Shown here piece by piece: positions 2,264 to 12,836 of a stretch of DNA of 13,081 nucleotides. The stretch's first letter is position 1. The number at the start of each line of letters is the position of its first letter. The position numbers were made by a program, and so were the translations under genes. This DNA comes from a candidate division TA06 bacterium SM23_40 (lineage in GTDB: Bacteria; LJUI01; SM1-40), in NCBI GenBank assembly GCA_001303705.1, contig LJUI01000069.1:1-13081 (forward strand), written 5' to 3'. The notes below the pieces were generated by a model. It saw nothing but the letters and a program-made list of their open reading frames with translations, ran no database searches and had not been told where the DNA came from.

Positions 2264-3979
2264 CTAGATGCTCTTTCCACGAAATCTCATGTCCTCTGCC
2301 CTGAGCTCCAGTCGCTTCTTCCCGCCGCGCCCGGTCTCGCAGGGCACGAATACGAGATCGAGCACCGGTTCACCCTGTCCCATCGCCCCCGCCATGTCGC
2401 CCAGGCCGAACCCTACGGACTGCACCACCCGATTCCCTGAGCGGACTTTGAATCTGAGATGAGATTTTCCGAAGGTGCGGGGCGATCCCACAAGCTTGAG
2501 CCCGCGTGCAACGAACCGGGGGCGCGGGTTCTGGTACCCGAACGGAGCGAACAGGTCGATCTGCCTGACAAGCTCGAGGTCGACCTCCCCGAGCGCTACT
2601 TCATCGTCGATCTCCAGGCTGGGAATGAGATCGTCTTCGCTCAGGACGACAGAGGCCATCTCGTTGAGCTGCTCACGTAACGTATCGATCTCGGCCGCGT
2701 CGATCGTCAGGCCGGCCGCCCGCGTGTGGCCCCCGAACGCGAGGAGGTGTCGCCTCGACGATTCGAGCGCCCTGGAGATGTCGTACCCGGCGATGCTCCG
2801 CGCCGAACCTCTCCCGATGCCCTCTTCGATTCCGATGAGGACGACGGGACGGTGGAAACGTTCGGTCACGCGCGCCGCGACGTATCCCAACAGACCCGTG
2901 TGCCAGTCCTCCCCGGCGAGGACTATGACCTTCTCTGAGGAGAGATCCACGTCCTGCTTGATCTTCTCCATCACTTCAGTGAGCAGGGCGTAGGCCATCA
3001 CCCGCCGCCGCTCGTTCTCTTGATCGAGTCGCTCTGCGATCTCGAACGCCCTCGCGTCATCCCTAGTGACGAACAACTCCACGGCGAGACAGGGCTCGGA
3101 GAGCCGCGCGGCCGCATTGATCCGGGGAGCGATGGCAGTCCGCACGTCGCGGCTCGTCAGTGTCGGCTGTGACTGGCCCGCAGTCTCGAGAAGGGCGACC
3201 AGCCCGCTCTTCCGCGTCGCGCTCAATATCTGGAGCCCCACGCTCACGAGAACGCGATTCTCATCCGTGAGCGGCACCACGTCAGCGATCGTCCCCAGCG
3301 CGACGAGATCGAGGTGCTGCAGGAGTTCATCCTCATGACGTGCCAGCTTCCGGTACAGCGCCTGCGCCAGCTTGAACGCCACACCTACCGCCGCCAGGCC
3401 CGTGAACGGATACCCCGAACCCGGGATTTCGGGGTCGAGGACAGCCACGGCCGAGGGGAGGATCTCCTGCGGCGCATGATGGTCGACGACGATGACATCG
3501 ATGCCGCGGTCCCGCGCCGCGTCCACGGCGTCGACAGCGGCGATCCCGCAGTCGACAGTGATGAGGAGCGTCGCCCTCCTCGCCGACGCCACCTCGAGCC
3601 CGGTCCGCCTCAGCCCATATCCTTCCCTGAAACGATCAGGAATGAAGTAGTCTGTTCTCGCCCCCACATCGCCCAGCGCGAGGCAGAGCAGAGCGGTTCC
3701 GGTGAGCCCGTCGACGTCACAGTCGCCATGTACGAGGAGCTGCTCATCGGCCCGCAGCGCCGCTACGAGCCGATCGGTAGCGCGCTCCATTCCGCGCAGC
3801 TCGAATGGATCGTGTAACTGATTGAGACTGGGATGGAGGAACGCTTCACCCTCGGCAACGCTGCGACACCCGCGACGCGCCAGCGCCCCGGCCAGAGGAC
3901 GCGCCATATCGAGCTCTCGCTCGAGTGCACGCTCCAGATCAGGCTCTCTCTGTGTCCGAACGATCCACCTGCGATCCAT
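2264..3979 (-). CDS. recJ: Single-stranded-DNA-specific exonuclease RecJ
   Basis: RecJ is a 5'-3' single-strand DNA exonuclease acting in RecF-pathway recombination, mismatch repair and base-excision repair. The 571-residue protein has full family length and the complete DHH/DHHA1 motif set: HGDCDVDG at 84-91, TVDCG at 141-145, VDHH at 165-168, ALGTIADVVPL at 227-237, RINAAARL at 286-293, GSARS at 391-395 and GGHTRAAG at 416-423. The C-terminal part (from about residue 460) is the expected OB-fold region. I start it at the ATG at 3979, with CAGGT placed 6 nt upstream. An in-frame GTG at 4027, with AGG close upstream, would add 16 residues encoded by repeat DNA and seems less likely. The start codon and its Shine-Dalgarno region are the last unit of a degenerate tandem repeat filling the leader. 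The gene follows rnpB and precedes rel on the same strand. Confidence 0.95.
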   Translation of the reverse strand: MDRRWIVRTQREPDLERALERELDMARPLAGALARRGCRSVAEGEAFLHPSLNQLHDPFELRGMERATDRLVAALRADEQLLVHGDCDVDGLTGTALLCLALGDVGARTDYFIPDRFREGYGLRRTGLEVASARRATLLITVDCGIAAVDAVDAARDRGIDVIVVDHHAPQEILPSAVAVLDPEIPGSGYPFTGLAAVGVAFKLAQALYRKLARHEDELLQHLDLVALGTIADVVPLTDENRVLVSVGLQILSATRKSGLVALLETAGQSQPTLTSRDVRTAIAPRINAAARLSEPCLAVELFVTRDDARAFEIAERLDQENERRRVMAYALLTEVMEKIKQDVDLSSEKVIVLAGEDWHTGLLGYVAARVTERFHRPVVLIGIEEGIGRGSARSIAGYDISRALESSRRHLLAFGGHTRAAGLTIDAAEIDTLREQLNEMASVVLSEDDLIPSLEIDDEVALGEVDLELVRQIDLFAPFGYQNPRPRFVARGLKLVGSPRTFGKSHLRFKVRSGNRVVQSVGFGLGDMAGAMGQGEPVLDLVFVPCETGRGGKKRLELRAEDMRFRGKSI

Positions 3980-4305
3980 GATATTACCTGATGCGGTTCG
4001 TCGTACTACCTGCTGCGGACCATGCACCTATCTGGTGCGATCTACGGTCCTACCCTGCTGCGGCCCACGGTTCTACCTGCTGAGGCCCACGCCCCTACAT
4101 GCGGTCTATGGTTCTAGCTGCTGCTATCGAGGGTCCTACATGCGACCCATGCTCCTACGTGCTGCGACCCGGCTGCTAGCTGCTGCAACCCATAGTGCTG
4201 AATGCGATGCATGCTCCTACCTGCTCCGATCCACGGTCCTACCTGCTCCGATCCATGCTCCTACAAGCTGCGATCCACGGTCCTACATGCGATCCGAAGT
4301 CATAG
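3966..4305 (-). repeat. Degenerate 19-23-bp minisatellite in recJ leader, each unit resembling the recJ start site
   Basis: About 15 head-to-tail units run from 3988 to 4305, and a further unit (3966-3987) contains the recJ start codon. Most units are 22 bp, with several 19-bp variants. On the recJ strand the consensus is roughly GTAGGAsC(A/G)TGGATCG followed by CAGCAG, so a purine-rich AGG stretch sits before ATG or GTG and then GATCG. The recJ start unit (GTAATATCATGGATCGCAGG) matches the plus-strand consensus at 17 of 22 positions by my count. The best-preserved units are at 4220-4286. Because 22 is not a multiple of 3, successive start-like codons fall in different frames. The spacers are not unique, so this is not a CRISPR array. 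Confidence 0.85.
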
Positions 4306-4396
4306 AATCATTTCATCCCCGCCCTCTCGCGCCCGGCTCTCCTTCCGCGGGGAACAAGTCTTTCGGGGCCGGTGCGAGGGCCCATAAGGATCAAGG

Positions 4397-4424
4397 TGCG
4401 CCTGCTCCCGTCAGGAGCGGCGCA
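4397..4424. other. Strong stem-loop between rnpB and the recJ leader repeat
   Basis: The arms TGCGCC(T)GCTCC and GGAGCGGCGCA form 11 base pairs with one bulged base and a 5-nt loop. The element lies about 30 nt past the 3' end of rnpB. On the minus strand a T-run (about 4434-4442) precedes the hairpin instead of following it, so it is not a canonical intrinsic terminator. It may act as a 3' stabilising or processing structure, or as part of the recJ leader. Confidence 0.5.
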
Positions 4425-4452
4425 TCCTCGATAACGAAAAACGTACTGGGAC

Positions 4453-4908
<456 letters not shown>

Positions 4909-4914
4909 CACTCA

Positions 4915-4943
4915 ATCCTACTCGCTTTTGATTCCTTTGTCAA
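4915..4943 (-). promoter_or_regulatory. Predicted sigma70-type promoter of rnpB inside the 3' end of the RNase H gene
   Basis: A perfect -35 box TTGACA (4943-4938) is separated by exactly 17 nt from TAGGAT (4920-4915), a 4-of-6 match to the -10 box. The TAG of the -10 box is also the stop codon of the RNase H gene. Transcription would begin about 4909-4908, at the G run just ahead of the P1 helix of RNase P RNA. This agrees with the structural 5' end. Confidence 0.75.
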
Positions 4944-11582: not shown

Positions 11583-12482
11583 TCAGAACGCGGTCAGCTC
11601 TCCGAATTCGCGGTACCGCCGCTCGATTGCCTTCTCATCGATGTGCGCGAGTCGGCGGAGGCCGAACTCCTCCACGCAGAACGAGGCGAGGACGCTCCCG
11701 TACACGACCGCCCGCCGGACGGCCGGCTCGCTCAGATCGTCGGTCCTGGCCAGATATCCCATGAACCCCCCGGCAAAGCTGTCCCCTGCCCCTGTGGGAT
11801 CGAAGACGAACTCAAGAGGATAGGCGGGAGCGAAAAAGCGGGATCCGCCGGCGTCGCAGAGACACCCGTGCTCTCCCTTCTTCACGACAACCATCTTCGC
11901 CCCCATGGCGCGCAGCTCACTCGTCGCCATGATCAGGTTCGGCTCCCCGGTCAGCTGGCGGACCTCACCGTCATTCACCATGACCGCATCCACCCGGGAA
12001 ATAACCTCCAAGAGGAGCTCGCGTTCAGTCTCGATCCACAGGTTCATCGTGTCGCAGGCGACGAACTTCGGTGACACCATCTGATCGAGTACCGCGAGCT
12101 GCACTTCGGGGTGGATGTTGCCGAGGAAGAGGTACCCCTCTCCCCTTGCTTGCTCGGGCACCACGGGATCGAAGTCCTCGAAGACGTTCAAGCACGTGGA
12201 GAGCGTTTCGCGCTCGTTGAGGTCGTATCCGTACCGGCCGGACCACCGGAATGTCCGGCCCTCTCTCCGCTCCAGACCGGAGAGATCGATGTTGTGATCG
12301 GCAAGCAGCGCAACGTGCTCGTCGGAGAAGTCCTCTCCCACGACGCCGACGAGCGTCGGCGAGGTGAAGTGACTCGCGGCCACCGAACAGTATGTTGCTG
12401 ATCCGCCGAGCGCGTCCGTGCACTTTCCGAACGGCGTCTCAACTGTATCGAGCGCCACCGATCCGACAACAACAAGGCCCAT
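11583..12482 (-). CDS. PfkB-family (ribokinase-like) sugar or nucleoside kinase
   Basis: The 299-residue protein is an ATP-dependent kinase of the ribokinase superfamily and would phosphorylate a sugar or nucleoside; the substrate cannot be read from sequence. It starts with GLVVVGSVALDT and a substrate-site GGSATYCSVAAS (26-37). It carries the NDGEVRQL block (170-177) and VVKKGEHG (199-206). The signature DPTGAGDSFAGGF lies at 228-240, with catalytic base Asp234. I chose the ATG at 12482, preceded by AGGA 8 nt upstream, because the family begins right before 'VVVGS'. The frame stays open to 12644, but the extra 54 residues are arginine-rich, come partly from tandem-repeat DNA and have no family counterpart. 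It follows the dprA-like gene by about 390 bp. Confidence 0.88.
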   Translation of the reverse strand: MGLVVVGSVALDTVETPFGKCTDALGGSATYCSVAASHFTSPTLVGVVGEDFSDEHVALLADHNIDLSGLERREGRTFRWSGRYGYDLNERETLSTCLNVFEDFDPVVPEQARGEGYLFLGNIHPEVQLAVLDQMVSPKFVACDTMNLWIETERELLLEVISRVDAVMVNDGEVRQLTGEPNLIMATSELRAMGAKMVVVKKGEHGCLCDAGGSRFFAPAYPLEFVFDPTGAGDSFAGGFMGYLARTDDLSEPAVRRAVVYGSVLASFCVEEFGLRRLAHIDEKAIERRYREFGELTAF

Positions 12483-12585
12483 GCTGCTGTTCCTGAATGT
12501 CGACGTGCTGCCCTGCTCGATGATCTCACGTGCAGACGGTTGCGAGCAACGTCTCCAGGCGGGCTGTCCTCGTCCGCGGCCCAGC

Positions 12586-12836
12586 GTGCCCTTCCTGACG
12601 CTCGCCCGGGCCCGCACCACGCCCTTCATCACCCTCGCCGCCAACCCACCATGGCCATTTTCACGCTCCCCGTGCCCTCACCGCGCCCTTCATCACCTTC
12701 CCCGCCAGCCCACCGTGCCCTTTCTCACGCCCGCCGGGCCCTCACCGCACCTTTCATCGCACTCGCCCGGGCCCTTCATCACCTTCGCCGCCAGCCGACC
12801 ATGATTCCCATCGCACTCGGCCGCGCGCCTCACCAG
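12586..12836. repeat. ~32-bp tandem repeat upstream of the PfkB-family gene
   Basis: Units of about 32 bp follow one another, with a higher-order period of 64 bp. Copies at 12621, 12685 and 12771 begin GCCCTTCATCACC and agree at 28-29 of 32 positions. The intervening copies at 12653 and 12717 end GCCCTCACCGC and agree at about 26 of 32. A truncated unit (about 22 bp) sits at 12749. Further weak copies extend to both sides. The array fills most of the dprA-pfkB spacer. Confidence 0.8.

Follow-up and report, generated by a model that had tools for sequence, protein, structure and literature searches.

In candidate division TA06 bacterium SM23_40, the spacer between the RNase P RNA gene rnpB and the exonuclease gene recJ is filled by a degenerate tandem array whose last unit carries the start codon of recJ. 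This array probably arose through slippage-type tandem duplication of the recJ initiation region followed by mostly neutral decay, leaving a minisatellite that is private to the lineage. Most likely it is a by-product of repeat-prone spacer DNA rather than a dedicated switch, since the genome contains dozens of unrelated arrays of a similar kind. Both genes lie on the minus strand, and the relevant features of the window (the whole 13,081-nt stretch of DNA that was analysed) are as follows.

2264-3979, minus strand: recJ, 571 aa, an intact member of the single-strand DNA exonuclease family with DHH, DHHA1 and RecJ_OB domains (Pfam, alignment).
3966-3979, minus strand: end of the array within recJ, comprising the likely native ATG (3979) and the first codons, with the register kept (unit alignment, N-termini of relatives).
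3966-4294, minus strand: degenerate tandem array of 15 units of 19-23 bp plus an 11-nt half unit (Tandem Repeats Finder, shuffles, unit alignment).
3987-3989, minus strand: AGG, 7 nt ahead of the ATG and probably the core of the recJ Shine-Dalgarno sequence; it recurs in the units (sequence, listing of starts).
4295-4448, minus strand: remainder of the rnpB-recJ spacer, free of repeats and similar in length to the whole spacers of relatives (Tandem Repeats Finder, spacer measurements).
4449-4905, minus strand: rnpB, RNase P RNA class A (Rfam RF00010, 302.8 bits).
4915-4943, minus strand: promoter-like site immediately ahead of rnpB, with TTGACA and TAGGAT separated by 17 nt, from a consensus scan that is not evidence of function.

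The original prediction described about 15 degenerate units of 19-23 bp ahead of recJ and proposed a search with Tandem Repeats Finder (TRF). That search recovers a period-22 array of 15.0 copies at 3969-4290 (64% matches, 7% indels, score 131), and cutting the array by hand at the start codon likewise yields 15 units, nine of them 22 nt long, four of 19 nt, one of 21 nt and one of 23 nt. The 340-base region alone scores 145, against 65 for the best of 1000 dinucleotide shuffles, and identity at a lag of 22 reaches 0.52, against a maximum of 0.39 over all lags in 500 shuffles. The real values thus exceed every shuffle, and a lack of periodicity above shuffled controls, which the prediction had named as grounds for abandoning it, was not observed. 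The array is accordingly a minisatellite, in the sense of head-to-tail repeats of 10-100 bp above chance. Read in the sense of recJ, its consensus is GATCGCAGCAGGTAGGACC[G/A]TG, and the columns that vary least across units are CGCA and TAG. The ATG of recJ (3979) stands in register in the start-codon column of unit 15, the last full unit, which agrees with the proposal that the genuine start is itself the final repeat. Moreover, the register continues for about 11 nt into recJ past the ATG, and GTGGATCG is found again 11 nt later within the coding sequence, as had also been predicted for a motif of the start region. The further claim that every unit resembles the start region stands only in part. 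The repetition is real, but ATG or GTG occupies the start-codon column in only 10 of the 15 units, and only three further unit starts (4234, 4212 and 4068) have an AGG 7 nt ahead of them, as the recJ start does.

Position 3979 is most likely the native start of recJ, since homologues begin 2-5 residues ahead of the same invariant Trp, which is residue 5 of RecJ in an alignment with six relatives (39-45% identical). The second GTGGATCG falls within the codons for the conserved R-W-I of RecJ. Both points make it more likely that the array grew upstream out of the start region. This direction, with the recJ start as founder, may be regarded as favoured rather than proved, as unit 15 lies some way from the array consensus in the unit alignment. 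In the same alignment, adjacent units are no more similar to each other than distant ones, and the units as a whole are diverged; recent turnover of units is therefore the less likely course.

The gene order around the array is widely shared. Directly upstream of recJ and on the same strand, rnpB is found at 18 of the 46 other recJ loci examined (L178, L180-L182, L185, L186, L189, L191, L194, L198, L199, L008-L010 and L013-L016), a count drawn from two collections in which some loci may be from the same species. The phyla with this order include Zixiibacteriota, KSB1, Calditrichota, Ignavibacteria, Neomarinimicrobiota and Cloacimonadota. From the end of rnpB to the start of recJ, the 11 loci measured have 11-172 bp, as against 469 bp here; the excess is explained by the array, which takes up roughly 315 bp ahead of the ATG. 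No array of at least three copies (period at least 10) was detected near recJ in the relatives. Because distant bacteria share the gene order with short, array-free spacers, the array is a lineage-private expansion. No close relatives were found within the phylum; of two genome scans, the first gave none and the second only relatives of at most 43% identity. A second recJ-like gene in the same genome (G000:C100:48114-49607), 38% identical to the first, has no rnpB nearby.

Adjacency of the two genes across several phyla suggests that recJ is expressed by read-through from the rnpB promoter. Several relatives have gaps too short for recJ to have a promoter of its own, some of only 11-15 bp, and recJ is therefore probably read through from rnpB. 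Given these gaps, and given that a scan of the present spacer found no terminator-like site, the array itself is probably transcribed. The site at 4915-4943 is a candidate promoter for such a transcript. A literature search on rnpB-recJ linkage yielded nothing useful.

Tandem arrays are abundant elsewhere in this genome. Across 1.71 Mb (stretches L038-L177 of the 2.88-Mb genome G000, with genes called by our own hexamer-based caller), we counted 122 intergenic arrays of period at least 10, of which 45 have at least three copies, and intergenic arrays cover 5.5% of intergenic bases. Their consensus units are unrelated by inspection, except for one dispersed motif common to several. The unit of the recJ array does not recur in the genome, where other matches extend over 15-18 bp at E>0.8; its presence at unrelated loci, another outcome said to speak against the original prediction, was thus not found. 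One exact 17-base match lies in viral contigs. Periods are multiples of three in 46 of the 122 intergenic arrays compared with 61 of 71 in genes, indicating no frame preference between genes. When genic and intergenic arrays of at least three copies are counted together, their density is 38.5 per Mb here, against 2.9 per Mb across 80 recJ loci of other organisms, and 196 kb of control loci with at least 55% GC contain none, against 7.8 expected at the rate of this genome; the controls being recJ neighbourhoods only, one per genome, the contrast is indicative. Loss of mismatch repair or of RecA was rejected as the cause of so many arrays, as mutS, mutL and recA are present, and the host genome seems unusually rich in intergenic arrays despite them.

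Several further repeats were noted in passing. A dispersed motif near GGACGTTGGTAGGTTCAGAAGGTTA occurs in 58 copies (up to four mismatches) over 22 stretches, often as tandem pairs or triplets; these stretches include L096, L098, L135, L068, L046, L095 and L074, and the window holds no copy. Within the window, a second degenerate array (12580-12767; 64-bp period, 32-bp sub-period) lies some 100 bp ahead of a gene for a pfkB-family kinase (called at 11583-12482, minus strand). Long arrays at L086:1094-15275 and L048:4444-6815, with periods of 156, 279, 312 and 468 that are each divisible by three, probably encode repeat proteins.

The recJ array is not alone in ending at a gene start, as at least two others hold one in their last unit. 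At L066:3310-3407, the final unit of a 23-bp array, whose units resemble AGGATGACGGGAACAGATGGAGA, is the Shine-Dalgarno sequence and start (ATG 3405) of a macro-domain gene, and at L077:8630-8716 a 23-bp array runs through the start (8650, minus strand) and first six codons of a methyltransferase gene. The idea that initiation sites are a preferred substrate for repeats was nevertheless rejected: arrays overlap 5 called gene starts where random placement predicts 16.8, and 23 stop ends where it predicts 17.4, called starts being approximate. Some arrays simply happen to include an initiation site.

The consensus of the recJ array forms a chain of short frames, AUG/GUG-GAU-CGC-AGC-AGG-UAG-GACC-AUG/GUG, in which each stop falls 4 nt before the next start. 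Numerous short start-stop frames are indeed present in the units, consistent with the predicted leader of many potential initiation sites. It is conceivable, though unlikely, that these are serial coupled minicistrons, each comprising a unit start, five codons and a UAG stop 4 nt before the next start, at which ribosomes reinitiate, so that the array would deliver or waste ribosomes ahead of recJ and the number of units would set the output. The chain of consensus frames fits such a scheme, the leader is probably read through, and the stops are largely intact, the UAG columns being preserved in 13 of 14 units (null mean 10.0, P=0.04 uncorrected, best of 17 triplets). Furthermore, a 3-nt deletion shared by four units preserves the frame between start and stop. 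MIRUs provide known examples of short coupled frames at start codons, and a stop-to-start distance of +4 nt would permit translational coupling, which works best between -4 and +3 nt and, less strongly, out to about +40 nt (PMC12548453). The start codons, however, show no protection: they are missing in 5 of the 15 units, and their columns are intact in 9 of the 14 units besides the real start (null mean 10.0, P=0.84). Few units have a well-spaced AGG, the last intact frame (ATG 4023) stops 26 nt short of the recJ ATG, and many arrays in the genome are without such frames. The original proposal that the array tunes recJ is not supported, the array being one of more than 100 intergenic arrays in the genome and its start columns decaying like the rest of the unit. 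A weak effect of leftover mini-frames on recJ translation is possible.

A broader version holds that the lineage amplifies initiation regions into coupled-minicistron arrays, as at recJ, the macro-domain gene and the methyltransferase gene, and that unit copy number and decay set downstream translation. If true, expression would be tuned by repeats, each gene having a unit of its own, but we regard this as decidedly improbable. We likewise place little weight on an iteron-like or operator-like array bound by protein on the DNA or the leader RNA. A 22-bp unit does approximate two helical turns, and the strong conservation of the CGCA and TAG columns also speaks for it. Against this, four 19-bp units disrupt helical phasing, a copy of the unit was not found elsewhere in the genome, and the locus has no origin-like feature or switch in GC skew.

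Tandem repeats before a gene are a classic substrate for phase variation. The recJ array has this placement, and several adjacent units, such as units 3 and 4, are similar. It is nonetheless very improbable that gain and loss of units alters the leader and switches recJ among cells as a contingency locus. Divergence among the units is strong, and neighbours resemble each other no more than units further apart do, a pattern that suggests turnover has been slight of late. Lying outside the reading frame, repeats with a period of 22 have no means of switching the frame of recJ itself, and recJ is a housekeeping repair gene rather than a surface antigen. Least credible of all are a structured cis-regulatory RNA leader, rejected because the array has no Rfam match and its fold (z=+0.66) is no better than shuffles, and a coding repeat on the opposite strand, where a frame of 212 codons (3822-4460, plus strand) stays open across the entire array, as expected from a unit with no stop codon in that direction, but has no Pfam match and a period, 22, that is not a multiple of three.

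Tandem duplication followed by neutral decay remains the account we prefer. The 22-bp initiation region of recJ, with its AGG, ATG and first codons, would have been duplicated locally in tandem within the rnpB-recJ spacer, lengthening it by about 315 bp. Such growth would have been tolerated upstream only, because the conserved R-W-I codons hold the coding side. The copies would then have decayed mostly without selection, as in the dozens of unrelated intergenic arrays in the genome, probably within a leader read through from rnpB. The AUG/GUG-to-UAG mini-frames would be a by-product, exerting at most a mild capture or reinitiation of ribosomes before recJ. Slippage as the mechanism, the recJ start as founder, read-through transcription and a small effect on translation are inferences. 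The array itself, its register through the start, the conserved gene order, the long spacer, the private unit, the genome-wide abundance of arrays and the unprotected start codons are direct observations. Counting against this account are the intact UAG columns, the in-frame deletion and the two other arrays that end in a gene start. The locus illustrates how a minisatellite can take in an initiation site as its last unit and leave the gene unbroken. Should the units bind ribosomes, serial minicistrons could be tested here, in a natural setting, for a role in tuning expression; at present, the locus is chiefly an example of a spacer in which repeats have grown neutrally.

Among known systems, two resemble the array in placement or unit size only. 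The TAACTGA repeats of Beggiatoaceae are likewise tandem, stop-containing and situated directly before start codons, with a suggested translational role, but they consist of one heptamer shared by 169 sets in one genome, whereas here each locus has its own longer unit (PMC4679880). The BrickBuilt elements of Porphyromonas gingivalis share internal 23-nt tandem repeats, an intergenic location and partial read-through transcription; they are, however, transposable-type minisatellites or MITEs present in 19 copies and always at least 49 bp from genes (PMC4596501), while the recJ array is undispersed and overlaps a gene start. The closest parallel in anatomy is the MIRUs of mycobacteria, which insert at start codons, bringing a short coupled frame with them (PMC12548453), and stand in tandem between senX3 and regX3 (PMC4213456). 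What they share with the recJ array is a repeat unit situated at the beginning of a gene and bearing a short open frame next to the start codon, in some cases in tandem (PMC12548453, PMC4213456). MIRUs form a dispersed family with -4 nt coupling, whereas the 22-bp recJ unit occurs at a single locus in the genome, with a consensus stop-to-start spacing of +4 nt and a last intact frame 26 nt from the recJ ATG. In its head-to-tail units of 10-100 bp, intergenic position and locus-private sequence, the array resembles the private intergenic minisatellites of bacteria (VNTR-type loci), from which it differs in that its copies are old and diverged and its terminal unit holds the start codon of the next gene. 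We rate it as a private intergenic minisatellite in which the start of a gene forms the last unit.
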